From Opitutia bacterium (GTDB lineage Bacteria > Verrucomicrobiota > Verrucomicrobiia > Opitutales > T3Sed10-336): a stretch of 52,133 bases of DNA. The DNA is taken from the NCBI GenBank assembly GCA_003558065.1, contig PWMU01000118.1, positions 1 through 52,133 on the forward strand, read 5' to 3'. A model generated the notes under the pieces. The model was not told the DNA's origin. It saw only the letters and a list, made by a program, of their open reading frames with translations, and did no database searches. Positions 34,463-46,026 of the stretch are shown one piece after another. Position 1 is the stretch's first letter. Each line of letters starts with the position of its first letter. A program made the translations under genes and the position numbers.

Positions 34463-35407
34463 TCAACCCTGTTCAGATTCACGTTTAAAACGCTCGATAG
34501 CCGGCATGATAAGCCGGTAAGCCAGTTCTATAAAGTCAAAACCTTCGCACGATGCACTCATGGGAAGCAAGCTGGTTCCCGTCAGGCCGGGAAGCGTATT
34601 GATCTCAAGAAAGTGAAAGGTACCGTCGTCCGTCAGGATAAAATCAACGCGTGCAAAATCGCGGCACCCGCAGGCCGAAAACGCAGTTTCGGCCGCGTGA
34701 CGGATTCCGTTTGCCGTCGCCTCGGGAATGGCAGCGGGAGCCTGGTAGCGGGTCCGGCCCCGGGTGTACTTACTCTCGTAGTCATACCGGCCGGATTCCG
34801 GCATGATTTCGACCACTCCCATGGCCTTTCCATCGAGAACACCGACAGTCAGTTCCCTCCCCTCGACGTGTTCCTCCACCAGCCAGTCTCCGGATTCGAG
34901 CACGGGCAACCGCTGTTCCAGCTCTTCCCGGCCCTCGACAAACTGAAGGCCAATACTGCTCCCCTCGCCGTTCGGCTTCAAAACCAGCCGCGACCCAAGC
35001 CGGGAAACGATCTCGCGGGCAGACGGAGCCATTCCGGTTCGAAAACGAATCCCGTTCGGCGTAACCACGTCTCCCTCGCGGACGCGTTGCTTGGTTTCCT
35101 CTTTATTCATGCACAGGCGGCTCGATTCGACGCCGCTGCCGGCATAGGAGATGCCATCCTGATCCAGTAACCGTTGCATCCCTCCGTCTTCCCCGAAAAT
35201 CCCGTGCAGGGTCGAAAACACAACATGCCTCCTGCGGTTCAGGCCCGGCGGCAACGCACGGGAGCGGACCTCGAACACCTCGACCGGAAAACGCAGGACG
35301 AGCGCCTCGGTCACAAAACCGGCGGAGCGCAGGGAGACTTCCTTTTCACGGGACACGCCTCCCGCAAATACAGCTATAATCGGCGTGCTCAAAAGACGTC
35401 GCTCCAC
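34463..35407 (-). CDS. ddl: D-alanine--D-alanine ligase
   Basis: A 314-residue ATP-grasp enzyme making the D-Ala-D-Ala dipeptide used by MurF. The sequence shows FAGGVSREKEVSLRS (substrate-binding Glu) at residues 14-28, HGIFGEDGGMQ near residue 68, KPNGEGSSIGLQ near residue 144, and DFILTDDGTFHFLEINTLPGLT near residue 253, which holds the metal ligands. It overlaps the end of murB by 19 bases and stops three bases before the ftsQ start, so it is embedded in the dcw operon. Confidence 0.96.
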   Translation of the reverse strand: MERRLLSTPIIAVFAGGVSREKEVSLRSAGFVTEALVLRFPVEVFEVRSRALPPGLNRRRHVVFSTLHGIFGEDGGMQRLLDQDGISYAGSGVESSRLCMNKEETKQRVREGDVVTPNGIRFRTGMAPSAREIVSRLGSRLVLKPNGEGSSIGLQFVEGREELEQRLPVLESGDWLVEEHVEGRELTVGVLDGKAMGVVEIMPESGRYDYESKYTRGRTRYQAPAAIPEATANGIRHAAETAFSACGCRDFARVDFILTDDGTFHFLEINTLPGLTGTSLLPMSASCEGFDFIELAYRLIMPAIERFKRESEQG

Positions 35408-36360
35408 TGTTTTCCGAAAAGAAGCACTTCCGGCTCCATTTCGAAATTCTTGCGGCGGCGGACTTCATCCCTCAGTTCGCGCACCAATTGAATCACTTCG
35501 GAAGCGGTCGCGGCGCCGCGGTTGATAATGAAATTCCCGTGCATCAAGGAAACTTCCGCATCGCCGATCCGTTTGCCTTTCAGCCCGAGTTCGTCGATGA
35601 TTCGTCCCGCGCTGACCCCCGGCGGGTTCTTAAAGATGCACCCGGCACTGGATTCCTTGGGCTGGGCCCCGGTCCGCTTCTCCTGAAACTCAGCGAGCCG
35701 GCGGCGGATTGCAGCCTCTTCCTCGCGGCCGGGAGCCGCAATAACCGCCCCCAGAGCGATCGTATTCAGCAATTCGTGACACACCCGATAGTCGTAATGC
35801 AACTGGTCTTTCAGAAAGACCTTCTCCTCTCCGGCGTAAGTCATCAGGCGCACCTCTTCAACAACGTCAAAAAACCAACCATTCATGGCCCCGGCGTTCA
35901 TTCGCAGGGCCCCTCCGACCGTTCCGGGAATCCCCTCGAGAAATTCCAGCCCGCCCAATCCGAGCCGACAGGCTTCGCCGCAGAGTTTGCGCAATCGCGC
36001 CCCCGCCCCCGCCCACAGTCTCCCGTCTTCACGGGCGGCGATCTCGCGCCATCGGGATGATTGCAGCCGGAGAACCAGGCCCGGAACACCGTCGTCGGGC
36101 ACGATAACATTCGAGCCCCGGCCCAGAAGGAAAACCGGCACTCCGCAACCCCGTGCTTCGCGGAGCAGGACGCGCAGATCCTCGATTGAGGCGGGTTCTG
36201 AATAACAGCGCGCCGGCCCGCCCACACCGATTGTGGTTTTCTTTGCGAGGGGCTCGTTCTCACGCAGAACCGCGTCCGGCGAGAGCCGGCCGGAAAGCCG
36301 CCTGACAAACTCCGAAATCGGCGCATCGACCGCGGATTGATGCATCACCGCATCACTCAT
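35389..36360 (-). CDS. murB: UDP-N-acetylenolpyruvoylglucosamine reductase MurB
   Basis: A 323-residue FAD enzyme that reduces UDP-GlcNAc-enolpyruvate to UDP-MurNAc. FAD-binding parts are KKTTIGVGGPARCY (about 41-54), LGRGSNVIVPDDG (about 77-89) and GIPGTVGGALRMNAGAMNG (about 142-160). The proton-donor position is Cys (SAGCIFKNPP) where E. coli has Ser; Cys there occurs in many bacteria. The final Glu is in NFEMEPEVLLFG. I start at 36360, which overlaps the murG end by eight bases; an earlier start would add a non-conserved 23 residues. Confidence 0.95.
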   Translation of the reverse strand: MSDAVMHQSAVDAPISEFVRRLSGRLSPDAVLRENEPLAKKTTIGVGGPARCYSEPASIEDLRVLLREARGCGVPVFLLGRGSNVIVPDDGVPGLVLRLQSSRWREIAAREDGRLWAGAGARLRKLCGEACRLGLGGLEFLEGIPGTVGGALRMNAGAMNGWFFDVVEEVRLMTYAGEEKVFLKDQLHYDYRVCHELLNTIALGAVIAAPGREEEAAIRRRLAEFQEKRTGAQPKESSAGCIFKNPPGVSAGRIIDELGLKGKRIGDAEVSLMHGNFIINRGAATASEVIQLVRELRDEVRRRKNFEMEPEVLLFGKQWSDVF

Positions 36361-37507
36361 GGCCGGCTTTCGCACTCCTTTTAATGAGTCTCTCCCCAGA
36401 GACCCGTTTGCTGTCGCTCCGGATGACATCGCATATGTTCTCCAGGTCGTTCATAATCCGCTCGACACAATCCTCCCGGTCCATTCGTTCAAGGTTCCCC
36501 CGAAAGGTGCGCAGCAACCAATCGTTGAAAATCAGATCCACCACCTCTCTGTGAAGATCTCCGATATAATCGTGACCGATGACAATGCCTCCGCCCTGCC
36601 GTTCGACAAAAAGCGCATTGGCCCACTGGTGATTGTCGGCAGCGAATGGATACGGAATCAGGATTGACGGGACCCGGCAACGGATCAACTCGTTGATGGT
36701 ACCGGCTCCGGCACGGGTTACCACAAGATCGGCGGCCGACAGCAGCTCGGAAATATTGTCGGTGAACGGCACGAAATGAGCCTTGATCGGCTGCCCGTCG
36801 CGGGACTCGAGCTGAACGACGCCCGCATTCCCCTTGTTCATTCCGGTCACGCAGTACACGTGAATCCCTTCGTCCGCGAAAAACTTGAAATGCTCGCGCA
36901 CCCAATCGTTCAGGGTCGCGGCTCCCTGGCTTCCCCCGAGAACCACCAGCAGCTTTCCGCCCGCCTCCACTCGCAGTTTTTCCCGGCTGGATTTGACCGG
37001 CAGACGGCGAATCTCGCGCCGCACCGGACAGCCGAAGTGCCTCACTGTTTCCGGTGAAACCTTCCGAAGGCGCACGCCGGGCGGAAGGTAGATCCGGTAA
37101 GCCAACCGCTGCAGCGCCCGGGTAGCCCTTCCGGCGACACGATTGGATTCGTGCAATACCAGCGGCACTCCACGCCAAAAAGCGGCCACCGCGACCCCCG
37201 CGGTACTGAATCCCCCGAACCCAATCAGCAAATCAGGCGAGAGCTTGCACATAATGCGTACCGACTGAATAATCCCCCGGGCCTGCTGGCAGGCAAAGGA
37301 CCAGAACCGCAATGGATGGAGCGAGAACGGCGCCCCCGGCACGGCGACAAAATCGAGATTCGGGTATTTCTGAATCAGACGTTTGTCCACCTTTTTTTCG
37401 CTGATCAGCAACCAGCAGGTATGCCCCCTTGAGATCAGGCCCTCCGCCAGCGCGATCCCGGGAGCAAGATGGCCTCCGGTTCCCCCACACGAAATCAGGA
37501 TCTTCAT
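36353..37507 (-). CDS. murG: Lipid II synthase MurG
   Basis: The 384-residue peripheral membrane glycosyltransferase (GT28) adds GlcNAc to lipid I. The N-terminal motif ISCGGTGGHLAPGIALAE is at residues 4-21, and the UDP-GlcNAc part of the C domain has VVLGGSQGAATLND and VVTRAGAGTINELIRC. The ATG at 37507 shares one base with the ftsW stop (TGATG). No murC follows; murB is next. Confidence 0.96.
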   Translation of the reverse strand: MKILISCGGTGGHLAPGIALAEGLISRGHTCWLLISEKKVDKRLIQKYPNLDFVAVPGAPFSLHPLRFWSFACQQARGIIQSVRIMCKLSPDLLIGFGGFSTAGVAVAAFWRGVPLVLHESNRVAGRATRALQRLAYRIYLPPGVRLRKVSPETVRHFGCPVRREIRRLPVKSSREKLRVEAGGKLLVVLGGSQGAATLNDWVREHFKFFADEGIHVYCVTGMNKGNAGVVQLESRDGQPIKAHFVPFTDNISELLSAADLVVTRAGAGTINELIRCRVPSILIPYPFAADNHQWANALFVERQGGGIVIGHDYIGDLHREVVDLIFNDWLLRTFRGNLERMDREDCVERIMNDLENICDVIRSDSKRVSGERLIKRSAKAGHE

Positions 37508-38667
37508 CACGCTGCGATTTCCTTTAACTTTCGACGGGTATTGCGCATGGGCGGTTTCGACCAGGCCAGCGAAGTGTTCACCAAAACCCCGACAATCGCG
37601 AACATGGCCACCAGATTCGACCCGCCGTAGCTGATGAACGGCAGGGACAGTCCCTTCGTGGGCAGGCAACCGGTCACCACCCCCATATTGATCAAGGCCT
37701 GGACGCTGATCAGGAGAAGTCCTCCCGCGACCAGGAGGTACTGGTACATGTTCGGAGCCCGCCGAAGGTGGAATATTCCTGCGAGGAACAACACCATGAA
37801 CAGCAAGAGGACCCCCGAAGTCACAAAGAAGCCGAGCTCCTCGCCGATCACGGCAAAAATAAAGTCGGTGTGGGCTTCGGGAAGGAAAGCCATCTGCTGA
37901 CGCCCGTTACCGAGCCCGACTCCTTCCGTGCCACCCGCGCCGAAGGCAAGGATGGCTTGCCAAAGCTGGTACGCGCCCTCGCCGCGATTGCCCTCGATGT
38001 CCATGAACGACATCACCCGTCCGCGCCTCAACGGGTTCGTAAAAACCGCGAACGCGAATGCGGCCAAAGCCCCGATACAGGCGGGAATGAGATAACTCAT
38101 TCGCACACCGGCCAGAAACAGCAGGGTCAGCCCGACGGCGCCGCAAAGCGCGGCGGCGCCGTAATCAGGCTCGAGAAAAATCAGTCCGGCATACAGGCCG
38201 ATATAGAGACACGGAAAAACGAAGCCCGCCCAAAACCGCGGAATTGCCCGCTGATGGGTTCCCAGATAACAGGCCAGGGTAAACACCAGCCCCAACTTGG
38301 CGAACTCGGAAACCTGCAACCGCATGAAGCCGAGGTCGATCCAGCGCCGCGCACCATTGACTTCCACGCCTATTCCCGGAATGAGCACGAGCACCAGGCC
38401 GGCCAGGGACACCCCCAGGGCCGGCCAGGCAAAGCGTTTCAGTCCATCGAGGTTGACCAGTGAGAAGAAGATCCCGACCGCGACGGCAACCACCAGCCAG
38501 ATCAGTTGCCTCTGTATATAGTGATACGGATCGGACGCGGAATGAGCACTGGCGCTGAACAGGACGCTAACACCAAAAACAGTGAGGCTGACGACGCAGA
38601 CCAGGATAATCACTCCCGGCTGAAAGATCCTGGCGAATGAAAGACCTTCTGCGGATCGGGTAGCCAT
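37507..38667 (-). CDS. ftsW: SEDS peptidoglycan glycosyltransferase FtsW
   Basis: A 386-residue polytopic protein with about ten transmembrane helices. Typical SEDS signatures are GARRWIDLGFMRLQVSEFAKLGL near residue 105 and KGLSLPFISYGGSNL near residue 350; the catalytic Asp region lies in FLEPDYGAAA. It polymerises lipid II at the septum together with FtsI. FtsW rather than RodA is chosen from its place in the dcw cluster. It lies 25 bases downstream of the LysM-protein gene. Confidence 0.95.
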   Translation of the reverse strand: MATRSAEGLSFARIFQPGVIILVCVVSLTVFGVSVLFSASAHSASDPYHYIQRQLIWLVVAVAVGIFFSLVNLDGLKRFAWPALGVSLAGLVLVLIPGIGVEVNGARRWIDLGFMRLQVSEFAKLGLVFTLACYLGTHQRAIPRFWAGFVFPCLYIGLYAGLIFLEPDYGAAALCGAVGLTLLFLAGVRMSYLIPACIGALAAFAFAVFTNPLRRGRVMSFMDIEGNRGEGAYQLWQAILAFGAGGTEGVGLGNGRQQMAFLPEAHTDFIFAVIGEELGFFVTSGVLLLFMVLFLAGIFHLRRAPNMYQYLLVAGGLLLISVQALINMGVVTGCLPTKGLSLPFISYGGSNLVAMFAIVGVLVNTSLAWSKPPMRNTRRKLKEIAA

Positions 38668-38692: not shown

Positions 38693-39829
38693 CTATTCGT
38701 CGTCTACTTCCTCGTCGTCGTCCGGAATAATATCGATCAGCGGCACGTCGCCATCATCTTCGTCGTCTTCAATGAACTCCATCTCTTCGGGCTCATCCGG
38801 AACCACGGATAGCGCCTCATCGACCGGCTCCGTCTCTTCCTCTTCGCTCTCGTCACGGGCGTCCTCTTCCTCGGTTCCGGGAATAACGAGTTCCTGGCCG
38901 ACCCGCACGCGGCGAGGGTCGCTGATATTGTTGACGCGCATCAGCTCCTCGACCGAAACCCCGTAACGATTGGCAATGCCTCCCGGGCTTTCCCCGCTGA
39001 CAACGGTATGCCGAATCCCCTCCGCGGCGGGTTCCTCCGGCTCGGCGGGCGCGGCGTCTTCCCTTGGCGGACGGGGACTTTCGCCATCCGGCAGGGCCAG
39101 TTCCTGACCGATCCGGATATTGTCGCTCTGGAGGTTATTAATCGATTTGAGTTCCGCAACCGTTGTGCCGTGTCGCTGGGCGATCACCGAAAGGGAATCC
39201 CCCCGTTGCACGGTATAGGTCTCGGCCCCTTCAGGGGGCTCGGGAATCTCACGTTCAGGCGCCCGGTCCCGCTGCACGGAGCGCTCACCGCTGCCGGCGG
39301 GAATGCTCAGCTCCTGACCGGGCTGGATAACGGACTCCCGGGTCAGGTTGTTCATCTCCAGCAGCTCATCCATGGACACGTTTTCCCGGCGTGCAATATT
39401 CCAGACATTGTCCCCCTGCTGGACGACATAGGTGCGGGTGTCCTCCGGAGCGGCCGACGGCACTTCGATCGGATCGGGCTCGGGTTCGAAATCAGGTTCA
39501 TCGGCGGCATCGCGGGGCAAAGGACTCAGAATGGACTCCTCGTCAACGAATTCGGGCCTGTCAAACTCATCGTCCTCGGCCGGAGCGGTAACGGGCCGGT
39601 CCGGCCGGGCAGGCGCCGCTCGCTCGACCGGCGCCTCCCGCCTCTCATCGCGGGGGGCGGCACGTTCGTAATCAGTTCGGGCCGGCTGGGTTTCTCCGGG
39701 GCCCACCGGACGCGTGCGGTCCACCCGTTCTTCGGGCGGGATGGTCTGGCAACCCTGCTGGACAAATAAAATCGAAAATGCCAGCAGGTGAGCGACTAGA
39801 ACAACGGCGAATACTTTTGGCGCCTTCAT
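38693..39829 (-). CDS. Lipoprotein-like LysM protein within the dcw cluster
   Basis: A 378-residue protein with an N-terminal hydrophobic stretch ending FVQQGC (Cys27), so probably a lipoprotein or anchored protein. Three LysM repeats follow at about residues 133-178, 203-248 and 273-317, each with the Y/H-x-V-x-x-GD/E and GQEL-x-IP/LP pattern. They are separated by Pro/Glu-rich linkers. The last 60 residues are strikingly acidic (runs of Glu and Asp). It would bind peptidoglycan at the division site. The start is at 39829, behind a strong GGGAGGAA. It occupies the place of murD between mraY and ftsW. Confidence 0.9.
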   Translation of the reverse strand: MKAPKVFAVVLVAHLLAFSILFVQQGCQTIPPEERVDRTRPVGPGETQPARTDYERAAPRDERREAPVERAAPARPDRPVTAPAEDDEFDRPEFVDEESILSPLPRDAADEPDFEPEPDPIEVPSAAPEDTRTYVVQQGDNVWNIARRENVSMDELLEMNNLTRESVIQPGQELSIPAGSGERSVQRDRAPEREIPEPPEGAETYTVQRGDSLSVIAQRHGTTVAELKSINNLQSDNIRIGQELALPDGESPRPPREDAAPAEPEEPAAEGIRHTVVSGESPGGIANRYGVSVEELMRVNNISDPRRVRVGQELVIPGTEEEDARDESEEEETEPVDEALSVVPDEPEEMEFIEDDEDDGDVPLIDIIPDDDEEVDDE

Positions 39830-40095
39830 AATCGATCGTTTTCCTCCCTGTTGCTGATTGCAGGTTTCATGTTTCAAAATCTTCATTAACAGTAATTTCT
39901 TGGTTTTTCCCCATCCTCGTGCATCGCTCGAACGAGGACCGGTTTCTTAACGGCCATCTGCAGCGGCTGTTACCGGCAATGCGAATGTTCGATTTATTTT
40001 CGAAACGGAGTCGGACCGGCGCAAACAAAAACCGCCCTGATCGAAATGTTTTTGTGTAACCCGTTGCTTTTTCACCAAATTTTACCGTTTTTAAC
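39830..40095. promoter_or_regulatory. AT-rich gap between mraY and the LysM-protein gene
   Basis: The 266-base gap is the largest in the cluster downstream of rsmH and is more AT-rich than its surroundings. It includes a seven-base stem TCCTCGT/ACGAGGA at 39914-39938. It could hold an internal promoter for the lysM-ftsW-murG part. I could not find a convincing -35/-10 pair, nor any remnant of murD. Confidence 0.35.
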
Positions 40096-41196
40096 TTATC
40101 TCAATCTCAGCGTCCCCAGTCCAATAATACCGAACACGAGCGAAAGTATCCAGAAACGCATGACTACTTTGGTCTCGAACCAGCCCTTCAGCTCAAAATG
40201 GTGATGAATCGGTGCCATCCTGAAAAGCCGCTTCCCGCTGGTCTTAAATGAAAGCACTTGAAGGATAACCGAAACCGCCTCCATAACGAAGATTCCTCCC
40301 ACGACGATCAGAGTCAACGGCTGGTGAACCATAAACGCAACCGCGCCAACGATTCCTCCGAGCGCCAGAGACCCGGTATCTCCCATAAAGACCTCCGCGG
40401 GATGCGCGTTATACCAGAGAAAAGCGAGCCCGCCCCCTACGAGCGCGCCGGAAACCACACTCAGCTCCCCGGTTCCGGGCACGTAGCTGATGAAGAGGTA
40501 GTCGGAGATGATGACGTTGCCGGAGGCGTACGACATGATGGCGTACACGAGCGCGACCGTGATGGTACAGCCGACGGCGAGCCCGTCGATCCCGTCGGTG
40601 AGGTTGATGGCATTGCTCGACCCGATCAGGACCAGCAGGAAGAACGGGAAGAGGAACCAGAGCGGGGCGGCGGTCATCACCGCCTCCTTGAGAAAGGGCA
40701 CCCACAATTCACGGACCTTCTCCCCGCTCTCCGGATGCAGCAACAGGACAGTGAGTGCCGCCACCCCCACCAATGCCTGCCAGAACAGTTTCTTCCGGCC
40801 CGCGACGCCCTTGCTGTTCCGGCGCGAAACTTTCATATAATCGTCGGCAAATCCCAGAAGTCCCAGGGAAACAAAGACAAACAGCGCCACCAGCACCCAC
40901 ACATTGGGCTTGGCCCAAAGGAGCGTGCTGATCGTGACCGAGACCAGGATCAGCAGTCCGCCCATCGTCGGGGTATCTTTCTTCTTCGAATGCAGCCCGG
41001 CCAGTTCGCCCACCTCGGTTTCGGTCCTGAGGCTCTGCCGGAAGCTGAGTTCCTTGAGCTTTCGGATCATCAACGGTCCCAGCACGAGGCCGATCACCAT
41101 CGCGGTCCCGGCAGCGAGCAGGCCCCTGAATGTGATGTAGCGAAATAGCCGAAACGGGCCGAAAAATTGCTCGAGTTCGGCCAGGTAACTCAGCAT
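40096..41196 (-). CDS. mraY: Phospho-N-acetylmuramoyl-pentapeptide transferase MraY
   Basis: A 366-residue membrane enzyme with about ten transmembrane helices that makes lipid I from UDP-MurNAc-pentapeptide and undecaprenyl phosphate. The cytoplasmic motifs are KKDTPTMGG near residue 71, GFADDYMKV near residue 115 (catalytic Asp pair), NAINLTDGIDGLA near residue 195 and PIHHHFELKGW near residue 330. Its start overlaps the murF end by seven bases. Confidence 0.97.
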   Translation of the reverse strand: MLSYLAELEQFFGPFRLFRYITFRGLLAAGTAMVIGLVLGPLMIRKLKELSFRQSLRTETEVGELAGLHSKKKDTPTMGGLLILVSVTISTLLWAKPNVWVLVALFVFVSLGLLGFADDYMKVSRRNSKGVAGRKKLFWQALVGVAALTVLLLHPESGEKVRELWVPFLKEAVMTAAPLWFLFPFFLLVLIGSSNAINLTDGIDGLAVGCTITVALVYAIMSYASGNVIISDYLFISYVPGTGELSVVSGALVGGGLAFLWYNAHPAEVFMGDTGSLALGGIVGAVAFMVHQPLTLIVVGGIFVMEAVSVILQVLSFKTSGKRLFRMAPIHHHFELKGWFETKVVMRFWILSLVFGIIGLGTLRLR

Positions 41197-42668
41197 ACGA
41201 TCTCCCTCCCCAAAGGTATTTCCTGGCCCAGATCGTTCCAGAGCCGCTCCAGCTCATAACGGCGGCTCCCCTTGAGGAGGACGGCTCCGCGAAACTCCGT
41301 GAGCCGTTCCCGGACGGGACCGAGGTCTTCGGTCACCGACCACCGGTCGGGAGCGTTCCCGCCTTCTTCGAGGCCGCGGGCCATTGCGTCGGCATGGGTC
41401 CCGATCAGGAATGCAAAATCCCCGTCCCTGAGATTCAGCGAACGCAGCGCCTCCCGGTGAAACAGTTCGGCCTGAGCCCCGAGTTCTTCCATCGAACCCA
41501 GGATGTACAGGCGGGGAGACTCGGGCGGCGAGGCGTTCCCGAAGGCCTCCAGGGCGTCGACGAGCGCAACCGGATTCGAATTGTAACAATCCAGGTAATA
41601 GAATCCCTCGTCGGTGGAAAAAACCTGTCCCCTGTAGGCGCCCGGTTCCCACCGGAGCAACGCTTCCCGCATGTCGTCGACACTCGCTCCGAGTTCGCCG
41701 GCCAAGAGGATGGCAAACGCCGCGTTTTCAGCCATTCCCGCGCTGACCGGGTGCAACGGAAACACGGTTTCCGTTTCTTCACCGGAGTGTCGCACGAACA
41801 GCTCGGTCTCGTCTCCGTCCCGCGACAGGCGATGCTGCACCCGCCTCAGACTGCGCCCGAAAAACGGCCGCTCGTTTGCCGGGAGCAAACGTTCCATCAG
41901 CTTGCGCCCCGGAGAGCCGGCGCCCCCCTCGGCTCCCATAAGGCGAACGGAAGCCTTGATCGAGCGAAACGGGGGAAAGGCCAGGCAGGTCTCCGGGAAA
42001 ACCGCGATCCCATCACGCGGTATCGCCCGGAGCAACAGGGACTTCTCGGCGGCGACCGTATCCATATTCCTCAGGCGTTCCAGGTGAACGGGCGCGATAT
42101 TCGTAACGATTCCGTGAGTGGGGCGAATCAGGTCCGCCAGCATTTCCATTTCTCCGGGCATGTTGATTCCGGCCTCGATGACCGCGGTGGCGTGGTGCTC
42201 CGGATCGAGACGCATCAGGGTAAGCGGAACGCCGATATAGTTGTTAAAGTTGCCCTCGGTCTTGAGAACCGGTCCGCGGAACCTCAACATTTCCGCCAGC
42301 AGGTTCTTGGTCGAGGTCTTGCCGCAGCTGCCTGTGATACCTATCACCGGTCCCCGGAAGCGCACCCGGTAGCGGGCGGCCATGCGCTGGAGCGCCACCA
42401 AGGGGTCGTCGGTTACCAACTGCGGCAGCGGACAGGATTCGACGTGACGGGCGACCATGGCACAGGTCGCCCCCTGGGCGCGCGCGTGCTCCACGAAGTC
42501 GTGGCCGTCCCGGCTCTCGGTCCGCAATGCAATGAACATCGCACCCGGCTTAAGGGCGCGCGAGTCGTTGTGGAAACTGTCGATAATCGTGGGCATCCCG
42601 TTTTTCCAGGTCCCCAGCGCCCAGTCGGCTAATTCTCTTGGATTAAATCTTGGCATCGGTTGATTCAT
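41190..42668 (-). CDS. murF: UDP-MurNAc-tripeptide--D-alanyl-D-alanine ligase MurF
   Basis: A 492-residue cytoplasmic ligase. The P-loop is GITGSCGKTSTK near residue 128; TEGNFNNYIGVPLTL, VIEAGINMPGE and APVHLE follow in the central domain, and the lysine normally carbamylated appears in VAAEKSLLL. The C-terminal domain has DCYNSNPVALVDAL. All key residues seem present, in contrast to the MurE neighbour. It overlaps murE by ATGA and mraY by seven bases. Confidence 0.95.
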   Translation of the reverse strand: MNQPMPRFNPRELADWALGTWKNGMPTIIDSFHNDSRALKPGAMFIALRTESRDGHDFVEHARAQGATCAMVARHVESCPLPQLVTDDPLVALQRMAARYRVRFRGPVIGITGSCGKTSTKNLLAEMLRFRGPVLKTEGNFNNYIGVPLTLMRLDPEHHATAVIEAGINMPGEMEMLADLIRPTHGIVTNIAPVHLERLRNMDTVAAEKSLLLRAIPRDGIAVFPETCLAFPPFRSIKASVRLMGAEGGAGSPGRKLMERLLPANERPFFGRSLRRVQHRLSRDGDETELFVRHSGEETETVFPLHPVSAGMAENAAFAILLAGELGASVDDMREALLRWEPGAYRGQVFSTDEGFYYLDCYNSNPVALVDALEAFGNASPPESPRLYILGSMEELGAQAELFHREALRSLNLRDGDFAFLIGTHADAMARGLEEGGNAPDRWSVTEDLGPVRERLTEFRGAVLLKGSRRYELERLWNDLGQEIPLGREIVC

Positions 42669-44149
42669 ACATCTCCGGTTGTACGGATTGACAGCAGTTC
42701 GCGGGCGACCATCCGGTCGTCGAACGGGAGAAGCGTGTCGCCCATCTCCTGAAACGACTCGTGGCCCTTTCCGGCAAGCAACACGCAGTCACCCTCACGG
42801 GCGGTATCGAGAGCGAGACGTATCGCTTCGCGCCGATCGTTCACAAAATCGATCTTCGCGTGTTCAACAACTCCTTTTTTCATGTCGTCGAAAATCCGTT
42901 CCAGAGACTCCCCCCGGGGATTGTCGGCGGTGGCCCACGCGAAATCCGCCCGTTCCTGGACGGTCTTCACCATGAATGCGCGCCGGGAGCGATCGCGGTT
43001 GCCCCCGCATCCAAACACGGCCAATACCCGCCCGCAGCCGGCCTCTTTAAGGGCGTCAAGCCCGTTGCCCAGGGTCGTCTCCGTATGTGCATGGTCCACG
43101 AACACGCCGTACGGCTGCCCTTCATCGATCCGTTCCATCCTTCCGGGAACGCCTGGAAACGACCTCATGGCTTTGCCGAAGGTTCCGGGATTCCGTCCCG
43201 CGGCGCAACACGTCGCGACCGCGGCCAAAAAATGCCGGGCATTGTGTTCTCCGACCAGCGGGAGAGTGACTTTTGAGCTGCCCCCCGGCCACGTCAGCCG
43301 CATTCGTGTGCCGCGGCAATCGACGTGTATCCCTGAAGCCCGGACGTCCGCTTCCGGACTCGTGCCAAAGGTCACCGCCGACACCCCTTCGGGGAGATCC
43401 TCAAGGAGTTTCCGGCCCCAGGGACTGTCGAGGGGGATGACCGCCTTGCGCGGCAGTACGTCTGCTTCACGATCGAACATCCTCCTGATGGAGGCATAAG
43501 CGGCCTCTTCGGACCCCTCCTCCCGCCCGGTATCTTCCGTCAGGTTCAGGAAAGCAATCACTCCGAAATCGAGCCCGTGAACGTTCTGCTGCCGGATACC
43601 CCTCGCATCGATTTCCACAACCGCGTCGCGGAGCCCGGCCTTCTTCATCTGGGCCATCATTCCGACCAGTTCCACGGACTCGGGAGTCGTCCGGAACGAC
43701 GGGACAAGGCGGGATCCGAGGTCGCAGGAAATACTCCCGGTCATCCCGGCACGCCCCCCCGAGGCGTCCAGGAGGTGTTTGATCAGGTGGACGGTGGTGG
43801 TCTTGCCGTGCGAGCCGGTAACCCCGTAAAGATTGAGCGACTGGTCGGGGTATCCAAAGAAGCGCCGGGAAACCTGGGCCATGGCAACGCGGGCGTCGCG
43901 GACTTGAATAAAAGTCACCCCGGCATGGGCGCGCCGGACCTGCTCCGAGACAATGGTGGCCGCTCCGCGGTCGACGGCTTCCTCGATGTAAAAGCTGCCG
44001 TCGGTCTGCTGGCCGGGCAGGGCGAAGAACAGACATCCCGGCATCGCCCGGCGGCTGTCCGTGGTCAGACAGCTCACCGTCCGCCCCATCGTTCCGCTGG
44101 TAGCGACGATATCAATGCCGTCAAAAAGGTCTGTGAGCGTTTGCTCCAT
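42665..44149 (-). CDS. murE: MurE-family UDP-MurNAc-tripeptide synthetase homologue with altered central domain
   Basis: The 494-residue protein matches MurE in its N-terminal domain (TTDSRRAMPGCLFFALPG), P-loop (GVTGSHGKTTT), substrate stretch FRTTPESVEL, and C-terminal domain (VFGCGGNRD, DNPRGE near 409 and AGKGHESFQ), where DNPR and the GKGHE Glu recognise meso-diaminopimelate. The central domain differs at key places: the usual EVSSHAL is EIDARGI, NL-x-x-DHLDYHG is NLTEDTGREEG, and the carbamylated Lys position in the AAK motif appears to be Ile. These normally bind Mg and align substrate. I start at ATG 44149 from the family N-terminus; ATG 44245 overlaps the ftsI stop as ATGA and would add 32 residues. 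murF follows by ATGA overlap. Confidence 0.88.
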   Translation of the reverse strand: MEQTLTDLFDGIDIVATSGTMGRTVSCLTTDSRRAMPGCLFFALPGQQTDGSFYIEEAVDRGAATIVSEQVRRAHAGVTFIQVRDARVAMAQVSRRFFGYPDQSLNLYGVTGSHGKTTTVHLIKHLLDASGGRAGMTGSISCDLGSRLVPSFRTTPESVELVGMMAQMKKAGLRDAVVEIDARGIRQQNVHGLDFGVIAFLNLTEDTGREEGSEEAAYASIRRMFDREADVLPRKAVIPLDSPWGRKLLEDLPEGVSAVTFGTSPEADVRASGIHVDCRGTRMRLTWPGGSSKVTLPLVGEHNARHFLAAVATCCAAGRNPGTFGKAMRSFPGVPGRMERIDEGQPYGVFVDHAHTETTLGNGLDALKEAGCGRVLAVFGCGGNRDRSRRAFMVKTVQERADFAWATADNPRGESLERIFDDMKKGVVEHAKIDFVNDRREAIRLALDTAREGDCVLLAGKGHESFQEMGDTLLPFDDRMVARELLSIRTTGDV

Positions 44150-44241: not shown

Positions 44242-46026
44242 TCATAAGCCGCCCCCCCCTCTGTGAGCCAGCTCCCGGCCCGGCCGGGTCGGCTCGATTC
44301 CCAGGTAGGGAATCAGTTCAACCCCGATCCTCCTGAAGCTGGGAGCCGCCACCACCCCTCCGTAGGACGGACCGGCGGAGGTCGGTTCGTCGACGATAAC
44401 GGTAATGACCACCTTCGGGTTGGAAGCCGGAAAATACCCTGAAAACGAAGCCACATGGTGCTGGCGGGAATACCGGCCATCGACGATCTTCTGGGTGGTG
44501 CCGGTTTTTCCGGCGACCTCATAGCCGGGAATCTCGCCCTGCGGCGCGGTTCCTCCCGGCGCAACGGCGCGCACGAGCAGACGCGACACCCTTTCCGCGG
44601 TGCGCTCGGAAACCGCCCGGCGGCGCGCCTGGGGAGTGAATTCAAAGACGGTCTCGTCACGCTCGTTGAATGCACGCCGGATAATCCGCGGCTCCATGAG
44701 CATGCCTTCGTTGGCCAGCGCTCCCATCGCGTAATGAATCTGCAGGGGGGTGGCACTCAGGGCATGCCCCATCGGCAGGCGTGTGATCGTGAGGCCGTCC
44801 CAGTTGCCGACTGAATGAAGGGTCCCCGAACGCTCTCCAATGAGCGGAAAACCGGTTCGTTCGCCGAACCCGAAGGCTCGTGAGTAGTCATACAGGCGCC
44901 GTTCGCCGAGCAGCAACCCCATGTAGGCAACACCGCGATTGCTCGATTGCCTGACGATCTCCTCGACGGTCACCTCACCCATCTCGCGGTGATCCCGCGG
45001 AAGGCTCACGCGCCGCCCCCTGTACTTGACCACGGAAACACCGGCATCAAAGACCTGATCCTCCTCTATCAGATTCTCGTTGAAAGCTGCTGCGACGGGA
45101 ACGATCTTGAAGGTCGATCCCGGTTCGAGGACATCGGTGACCGCGAGGTTTCTCTGGTGGGCAATGTCCGCGACATTGTAGTGATTGAGATCGAACGTCG
45201 GGTAGTTGCCAAGCCCCAGCAGATGCCCGGTATCCGGTTCGCTCACAATGATAGTGGCGCCCTTGGGAGAAAACTCGTCGACGATGCGCCCCAACTCCTC
45301 CTCGATCACGTGCTGAACCATGCTGTCCAGGGTCAATTCGATATTCAATCCGTCCGTCGCGGGCACCTCGCGGGTCCGAAACTGCATCAGTTCGCGACGG
45401 CGGCCGTCCCGTTCTGACTCCATCCAGCCGTCTTCGCCCCGCAGGTAAAAATCCATCGCGTGTTCGACCCCGATGGTCCCCCGCCCTTCCCGGTTGGCGT
45501 AACCAACAATGTGGGCGGCCAGCTCACCCGACGGATACACGCGGCGGTACGTCCGGTTTCCGTAAACTCCGCGAATGCCGAGTTCGCGAACCTGTTCGTA
45601 AGTCGGCTCGTCCAGTCCCCGGTGCAGTCTGCGCCACCGCACGAGCCGAACATCTTCGGCGTAGTCCGACTCGCCCGCGGCGGTGCGGGTCCTCATCCTG
45701 TGTTCCAGCTCCTCGAGCGGCACGTCGATCAGGGCCGCCAGTTCCGGCCATTTATCCCGGTCTTCATCGCGGATGACCTGGGGATCGACACCGAGTTCGA
45801 CATAGGTCCGGTTGGTCGCGAGCAGGTTGCCCCGGCGATCCACGATGCCGCCCCGCTTCGCCTCATGCACAATCACCTGTTTGCGATTGCTTTCGGCAAT
45901 GAGGGCCAGCGGTTCCCGCTCGAGTACCTGCAGGTGGTACAGACGCACCCCAATCCCCGAAAATCCCGCCAGAACGACCAGGCAGAGTAATCCGAGACGA
46001 AACGATGATGCGAAGGCGGGGGTCAT
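44242..46026 (-). CDS. ftsI: Septal peptidoglycan transpeptidase FtsI (PBP3)
   Basis: A 594-residue class B penicillin-binding protein. A membrane anchor spans residues 9-30, the dimerisation/pedestal domain about 55-215, and the transpeptidase about 225-575. Catalytic motifs are STFK (304-307), SSN (361-363) and KTG (507-509). No PASTA domains follow. It overlaps ftsL upstream by ATGA and ends at an ATGA with an upstream murE ATG. It crosslinks septal peptidoglycan and works with FtsW. Confidence 0.96.
   Translation of the reverse strand: MTPAFASSFRLGLLCLVVLAGFSGIGVRLYHLQVLEREPLALIAESNRKQVIVHEAKRGGIVDRRGNLLATNRTYVELGVDPQVIRDEDRDKWPELAALIDVPLEELEHRMRTRTAAGESDYAEDVRLVRWRRLHRGLDEPTYEQVRELGIRGVYGNRTYRRVYPSGELAAHIVGYANREGRGTIGVEHAMDFYLRGEDGWMESERDGRRRELMQFRTREVPATDGLNIELTLDSMVQHVIEEELGRIVDEFSPKGATIIVSEPDTGHLLGLGNYPTFDLNHYNVADIAHQRNLAVTDVLEPGSTFKIVPVAAAFNENLIEEDQVFDAGVSVVKYRGRRVSLPRDHREMGEVTVEEIVRQSSNRGVAYMGLLLGERRLYDYSRAFGFGERTGFPLIGERSGTLHSVGNWDGLTITRLPMGHALSATPLQIHYAMGALANEGMLMEPRIIRRAFNERDETVFEFTPQARRRAVSERTAERVSRLLVRAVAPGGTAPQGEIPGYEVAGKTGTTQKIVDGRYSRQHHVASFSGYFPASNPKVVITVIVDEPTSAGPSYGGVVAAPSFRRIGVELIPYLGIEPTRPGRELAHRGGGGL

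Follow-up and report, generated by a model that had tools for sequence, protein, structure and literature searches.

A divergent dcw-cluster MurE and a second MurE-like ligase point to a rewired muropeptide pathway in Opitutales genomes without MurC and MurD

The window analyzed here is a 52,133-nucleotide stretch of an Opitutia bacterium (assembly GCA_003558065.1, contig PWMU01000118.1, positions 1 to 52,133), and its division and cell wall (dcw) cluster carries a divergent copy of murE, the gene of the diaminopimelate (DAP) ligase. We call the product of this gene MurE*, the second MurE encoded elsewhere in the same genome MurE2, and the genome itself G000. Judged by its residues, MurE* is very probably not the working DAP ligase, a role that the residues of MurE2 make it likely to fill, and both proteins occur in a genome in which neither MurC nor MurD was found. 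We read these observations as a whole as a rewired muropeptide pathway of the lineage, with MurE* as the former dcw MurE, and give this reading a probability of about 0.5. It suggests a route to the cell-wall peptide that has not been described.

The murE* gene runs on the minus strand from a start at 44149 to a stop codon ending at 42665, and its 494-aa product scores above the NCBIfam cut-offs for MurE (NF001126, 395 bits for a cut-off of 373; TIGR01085, 366 bits for a cut-off of 257). The gene and its motifs are as follows.

42665..44149, minus strand: murE*, divergent dcw-cluster MurE of 494 aa, probable pseudo-ligase (open reading frame, ORF, and translation; NCBIfam)
44045..44062, minus strand: TDSRRA, with the uridine-binding DSR motif of the N-terminal domain, retained (sequence)
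43793..43825, minus strand: P-loop GVTGSHGKTTT, residues 109-119, with the Asn of TNGKT changed to His (sequence)
43595..43609, minus strand: DARGI replacing SSHGL, residues 181-185 (alignment)
43517..43534, minus strand: DTGREE replacing DHLDYH, residues 206-211, with a predicted local distance difference test (pLDDT) score below 50 in the model (alignment, AlphaFold model)
43487..43489, minus strand: Ile221 replacing the carbamylated Lys, K225 in E. coli (alignment)
42908..42925, minus strand: DNPRGE, the DAP-recognition motif (DNPR, residues 409-412), kept in G000 and not in every relative (sequence)
42755..42772, minus strand: GKGHES (GKGHE, residues 460-464; sequence)

The original prediction, made from the sequence of the window, had described a MurE homologue that retains the P-loop, TTP, DNPR and GKGHE motifs and has lost ligase residues of the central domain. 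The four motifs are indeed in place (TTP at residues 154-156), and alignment bore out the reading of SSHAL as DARGI, of DHLDYH as DTGREE and of the carbamylated Lys as Ile, so that the second Mg site has Thr for the His of DHLDYH and Ile for the Lys. DARGI takes the place of the SSH segment with which a functional MurE contacts the MurNAc-dipeptide. When MurE* was aligned with E. coli MurE and with 15-40 relatives, no canonical Ser, His or Lys was found elsewhere in the protein. The retained DSR motif contacts uridine in E. coli MurE. The AlphaFold model of MurE* has the full three-domain Mur ligase fold (pLDDT 80.7) and matches solved MurE structures with template-modeling (TM) scores of 0.76-0.88; the only segments with pLDDT below 50 are residues 186-190, directly after DARGI, and residues 206-211, the altered DTGREE loop. 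The carbamyl-Lys is essential in MurD, MurE and MurF, while MurC and Mpl use a Glu instead (PMC3060825). Because this residue is essential, and because the MurE* copies of the family to which G000 belongs (f1, described below) lack a Glu of the MurC/Mpl type, MurE* is very probably not the working enzyme. A conversion of MurE* into a MurC- or Mpl-like protein, with a P-loop of SHGKT type and an ExD motif, was considered and ruled out, since MurE* has neither the compensating Glu of MurC/Mpl nor the DH, and its replacements vary among genomes.

In the G000 genome (4.13 Mb, 97% complete), a Mur ligase middle domain occurs in five proteins only, namely MurE*, MurF, MurE2, Mpl and FolC. Profile searches with four family models (PF08245, PF02875, TIGR01087 and TIGR01082) found neither MurC nor MurD in the whole genome, which extends the original prediction of a cluster missing murC and murD. 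A search for a second murE, proposed together with that prediction, located MurE2 on contig C91 (14042-15433). This protein has the best MurE score of the genome (459 bits), and in the complete copies examined the catalytic Lys, the His, the P-loop, SSH and DNPR are all present. Its N-terminal domain is another matter: PF01225 gives no match even at an E-value of 1, whereas ordinary MurE proteins score 32-47 bits, CRP stands where the uridine-binding DSR would be, and inserted residues form a conserved ExLxYNxW. Among 237 genomes of the class and 388 of the phylum, this CRP...ExLxYNxW domain is confined to f1 and to part of a second family, f22; further matches in the phylum (L174-L182), considered as MurE2 outside these families, lack the CRP...YNxW signature. 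Another arrangement of the pathway, or a protein that is no longer a normal ligase, had been offered at the outset as alternatives. The two appear linked rather than exclusive: the lineage has neither MurC nor MurD and carries a second MurE whose UDP-binding domain is altered, and this other arrangement is very likely the reason why MurE* has ceased to be a normal ligase.

Family f1 most likely corresponds to T3Sed10-336, a GTDB family from soda lakes that was recently named Verruconatronaceae and has a cultured member, Verruconatronum alginivorum (PMC13274419). The part of the family without MurC and MurD was examined in five genomes (G000-G004) of three genera (g1, g2 and g3); a further genome, G006, reaches just 67% completeness. 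Each of the five MurE* copies has lost SSH, DH and Lys, with differing replacements: the SSHG segment reads DARG, DTAG, DTVG, DWMG or SASG, the carbamylated Lys is Ile, Met, Met, Val or Asp, and the P-loop Asn is His, Tyr or Arg, with GKT kept except for GKS in G003. These losses exceed chance, as they recur in four related genomes and partly in a second family. Nothing indicates that the MurE* copies of relatives sharing the changes are normal DAP ligases, and all of these genomes except G004 carry a second MurE. The claim that MurE* has kept DAP recognition stood in part. DNPR is intact in G000-G002 and the motif is also kept in f22; the DNPR/GKGHE site present in G000 is degraded in G003, where DNTR weakens it, and in G004, where DDPG marks its loss, so that DAP recognition is not a conserved feature of MurE* in f1.

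Neither MurC nor MurD was found in G000-G004 with the four family models. The sister genus g4 (G005 and G007) has a normal MurE, MurF and a MurC-MurB fusion, and an intact MurD in G007, while in G005 a contig break falls at the murD site. Could the pattern be an artefact, through misassembly, incomplete bins or contamination by MurE2? Every f1 genome is fragmented, and the contig breaks in G005 and G025 can indeed hide murD. Yet the dcw cluster is contiguous over both deletion points in G000, G002, G003 and G004, as it is across those points in several f22 genomes, the MurE2 neighbor genes are syntenic between G000 and G001, and sister genomes of like quality have the missing genes. We therefore regard an artefact as extremely unlikely. 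A search for an operon partner of MurE2 among these neighbors was set aside, as they vary by genus and, judged by eye, seem unrelated (an acyl-CoA synthetase, a BASS transporter, a nitroreductase and an HDOD protein).

Family f22, sampled with 17 genomes, provides a second, independent case. Its basal genera are normal (G266 and G275-G278), and MurE2 is found in G028, G154, G182, G267, G269-G274 and G279, as well as in G268, a bin of poor quality with frame shifts, in which the damaged dcw MurE retains a Lys. Eleven dcw MurE* copies are intact; in these, Leu, Val or Glu stands in place of the Lys (mostly Leu or Val, with Glu in genus g151), Glu in place of the Asp before the His, and Ser or Gly in place of the P-loop Asn, and almost all the remaining substrate and DAP contact residues are kept. 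MurC is lost from every f22 genome with MurE2 except G279, whose MurC (L188, C5) resembles the E. coli enzyme in its motifs and not the verrucomicrobial fusion, which suggests that it was acquired anew from another source. MurD is gone from these genomes except in g151, where all four genomes keep a copy (L141:12267-13574, minus strand; L142; L143; L144) that is without its carbamyl-Lys, N138 and other contacts; this MurD would be another conserved pseudo-ligase among the Mur enzymes. Overall, an intact MurD occurs in 0/17 genomes with MurE2 and in 26/29 others, counts that are not independent and that amount to two evolutionary replicates.

A tree of seven dcw proteins places the MurE2-bearing clades of f1 and f22 apart, each with normal relatives. 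In a FastTree phylogeny of MurE, by comparison, all MurE2 sequences form one clade (support 0.999), with the f1 copies nested inside those of f22. The simplest reading of these trees is that MurE2 spread by horizontal transfer, with parallel losses in the two families.

MurE* evolves 1.8-2.5 times as fast as its neighbors in f1, and 0.9-2.2 times (mostly 1.1-1.4 times) as fast in f22, compared with 0.8-1.2 times for the dcw MurE of normal genomes. Its ratio of nonsynonymous to synonymous substitution rates (dN/dS) is 0.085-0.15, with about 0.09 for the copy in the window, and lies within the range of normal MurE, although dS is saturated in the f1 pair and makes that value rough. Given this dN/dS, MurE* is a maintained protein under purifying selection and not a pseudogene or a dying gene. 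The same low dN/dS would be expected if MurE* were still an active ligase with a reorganized Mg site; MurC and Mpl function without a carbamyl-Lys by means of a Glu (PMC3060825), and in f22, where nearly all other residues are kept, the Asp-to-Glu change beside the His, and in g151 the Lys-to-Glu change, could supply carboxylates. In f1, however, the losses take in the His, the Ser residues and the DHLDYH segment as a whole, vary by genome and come without the compensating Glu of MurC/Mpl, the Lys is Leu or Val in most f22 copies, and a complete second ligase is present. We thus consider continued activity of MurE* very unlikely.

The route that we favor would start from MurE2, which would add DAP to an acceptor other than the UDP-N-acetylmuramic acid (UDP-MurNAc) dipeptide, probably free L-Ala-D-Glu, where both the acceptor and the source of the dipeptide are inferred. 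Mpl would then join the finished tripeptide to UDP-MurNAc, and MurF would add D-Ala-D-Ala, while MurE* would persist in a non-catalytic role, for instance as a scaffold or as a binder of UDP-MurNAc-tripeptide beside MurF. Of 26 genomes, 25 retain MurB, which is encoded by a separate gene wherever the fusion has disappeared, and de novo synthesis of UDP-MurNAc therefore probably continues; MurF has kept its lysine, which makes it probable that this enzyme still acts on UDP-MurNAc-tripeptide. Mpl, too, is intact: that of G000 scores 382.6 bits with TIGR01081, slightly below the cut-off of 388.7 and far above its MurC score of 219, and the SAFFDKRSK and ATP motifs are kept in the 11 genomes aligned (as SALFDKRSK in G004). 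A studied Mpl, PaMpl, turns over the DAP tripeptide at 260 per min, L-Ala-D-Glu at 1.4 and L-Ala at 0.7, a preference of about 200-fold (PMC3060825). Together with the evidence on MurB, MurF and MurE2, the intact Mpl and this preference suggest that the tripeptide is built first and then loaded by Mpl, a step that we hold to be a serious possibility, a little short of even odds. Such a peptide-first route would explain the joint loss of MurC, MurD and MurE activity, which a mere replacement of MurE would not. In its full form, a precursor route independent of MurC and MurD that arose twice in Opitutales with a transferred MurE2, with Mpl as the sole loader and the old MurE (in g151 also MurD) as a selected pseudo-ligase, we propose it tentatively.

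Several observations weigh against this route. No enzyme making L-Ala-D-Glu was identified in these genomes. An E. coli YcjG homologue (46-50% identity) occurs in all five f1 genomes without MurC and MurD and is absent from the sister genus; this candidate for a predicted L-Ala-D/L-Glu epimerase is, however, named DgcA by NCBIfam, lies beside DgcN and is absent from f22, and we do not count it as support. MurE2 was not found in G004 (88% complete), though neither MurC nor MurD occurs in that genome and its MurE* shows the most decay, and G279 keeps a MurC-MurB ORF with a MurC of a different type. MurE2 could also bind a UDP-sugar in another way, and MurE* is so well conserved in f22 that a binding function still in use seems a better fit than simple decay.

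The altered part of MurE2 can be read differently. If MurC and MurD had been displaced by unrelated ligases acting on UDP-MurNAc, MurE2 would be a replacement MurE that acts on UDP-MurNAc-dipeptide with a remodeled N-terminal domain, and MurE* a redundant relic. That MurE2 has every residue contacting MurNAc-dipeptide and DAP, and that all the steps looked for upstream and downstream of MurC and MurD are retained, agree with this explanation. It needs two unrelated replacements jointly, and twice, and leaves the joint loss of MurC, MurD and MurE activity unexplained, while the part of MurE2 that has changed is precisely its UDP domain; we find it unlikely.

Mpl, for its part, might have taken over the task of MurC by adding L-Ala or L-Ala-D-Glu directly, with MurE2 again acting on UDP-MurNAc-dipeptide. 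Multicopy mpl complements an E. coli murC(Ts) mutant and PaMpl weakly accepts both L-Ala and L-Ala-D-Glu (PMC3060825), and the single-contig genome G011, which has MurD and Mpl and no detectable MurC, would fit such a wider role. Against this stand the roughly 200-fold slower reaction of PaMpl with these two substrates, the visibly unchanged signature motifs of Mpl in the genomes without MurC, and the absence of the usual UDP-binding motif from MurE2, which together make a takeover by Mpl rather improbable. G011 itself (2.6 Mb; L109, C1:1576000-1595900) has a dcw cluster that contains murD and lacks ddl.

A similarly low likelihood attaches to pure salvage, in which stem peptides would be imported or recycled and loaded on UDP-MurNAc by Mpl, with MurE2 serving recycling. 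In its favor are Mpl, which functions in recycling and is intact, the DgcN-DgcA genes for D-Glu catabolism in the f1 genomes, and the loose wall of the cultured family member (PMC13274419). But net growth requires new peptides, pure salvage would not need a complete DAP ligase that spread horizontally and is conserved, the separate murB where the fusion is gone makes de novo UDP-MurNAc probable, and the genomes, mostly of 2.3-5.3 Mb, are unlike those of reduced dependents. Full salvage through loss of MurB is ruled out by the 25 genomes that keep it. The DgcN-DgcA pair, annotated as D-Glu N-acetyltransferase and N-acetyl-D-Glu racemase, was located in the five f1 genomes (L183:8543-10707, minus strand; L184:5549-7527, plus strand; L185; L186; L187) and is predicted from these annotations to serve D-Glu catabolism. 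The glutamate racemase MurI (TIGR00067) was not found in nine genomes of the order (G000-G007 and G009), in which some other source of D-Glu must exist; as MurI is missing also where MurD is present, its absence is uninformative here. In Chlamydia, DapF supplies the glutamate racemase role (PMC5885031).

The cluster around murE* reads mraZ-mraW-ftsL-ftsI-murE*-murF-mraY-(LysM)-ftsW-murG-murB-ddl-ftsQ-ftsA-ftsZ, and includes the following genes.

44242..46026, minus strand: ftsI, upstream of murE* (ORF)
41190..42668, minus strand: murF, intact, overlapping murE* by 4 bp, lysine kept (ORF, alignment)
40096..41196, minus strand: mraY (ORF, conserved across relatives)
38693..39886, minus strand: LysM protein; murD, which precedes the LysM gene in the sister genus (L057), is missing between this gene and mraY (ORF)
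37507..38667, minus strand: ftsW (ORF)
36353..37507, minus strand: murG (ORF)
35389..36429, minus strand: murB, stand-alone, in the sister genus the C-terminal half of a MurC-MurB fusion (comparison with relatives)
34463..35407, minus strand: ddl (comparison with relatives)

Every dcw cluster that was read from this order encodes the LysM-repeat protein between mraY/murD and ftsW.

To our knowledge, MurC, MurD and MurE are regarded as enzymes that act in sequence at the universal core of peptidoglycan synthesis and that make broad targets for antibacterials. Our literature searches found no description of a pathway that has lost MurC and MurD but keeps its other steps, of MurE pseudo-enzymes, or of Mpl as the sole route for loading stem peptides. 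If the favored route is correct, the order of assembly (sugar first, amino acids singly) would not be obligatory, as two related lineages with the same MurE2 would show, and these bacteria would offer a natural test case for Mur ligases turning into pseudo-enzymes.

Compared with known systems, MurE* shares with canonical MurE of E. coli and M. tuberculosis the three-domain fold, the DSR, TTP, DNPR and GKGHE motifs and the dcw place between ftsI and murF, and differs from it in lacking SSH, the DH of DHLDYH, the carbamyl-Lys and the P-loop Asn, in evolving fast and in having no MurC and MurD to precede it. PAP11, the MurE-like subunit of the plastid RNA polymerase, is a MurE homologue kept in a larger assembly, and its structure 8r6s is the top match of the MurE* model by E-value, although lineage and setting are unrelated. 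The MurB/MurC fusion described in Verrucomicrobium spinosum (PMC4803751) is the arrangement of the normal relatives G005, G007, G266, G275, G276 and G278, whereas in the clades with MurE2 the dcw cluster has lost either the fusion altogether or its MurC half, and MurB stands by itself. The MurD2-MurL system of Xanthomonas is an alternative early muropeptide pathway without a D-Glu-forming gene (PMC8788868), as the nine genomes here are without MurI; it relies on a MurD homologue acting on UDP-MurNAc-L-Ala (PMC8788868), whereas MurC and MurD are both absent here. Finally, the intact Mpl, a recycling tripeptide ligase, would be the entry of stem peptides onto UDP-MurNAc (PMC3060825); known bacteria use it as a supplement to MurC-D-E, while here it would be the sole route.

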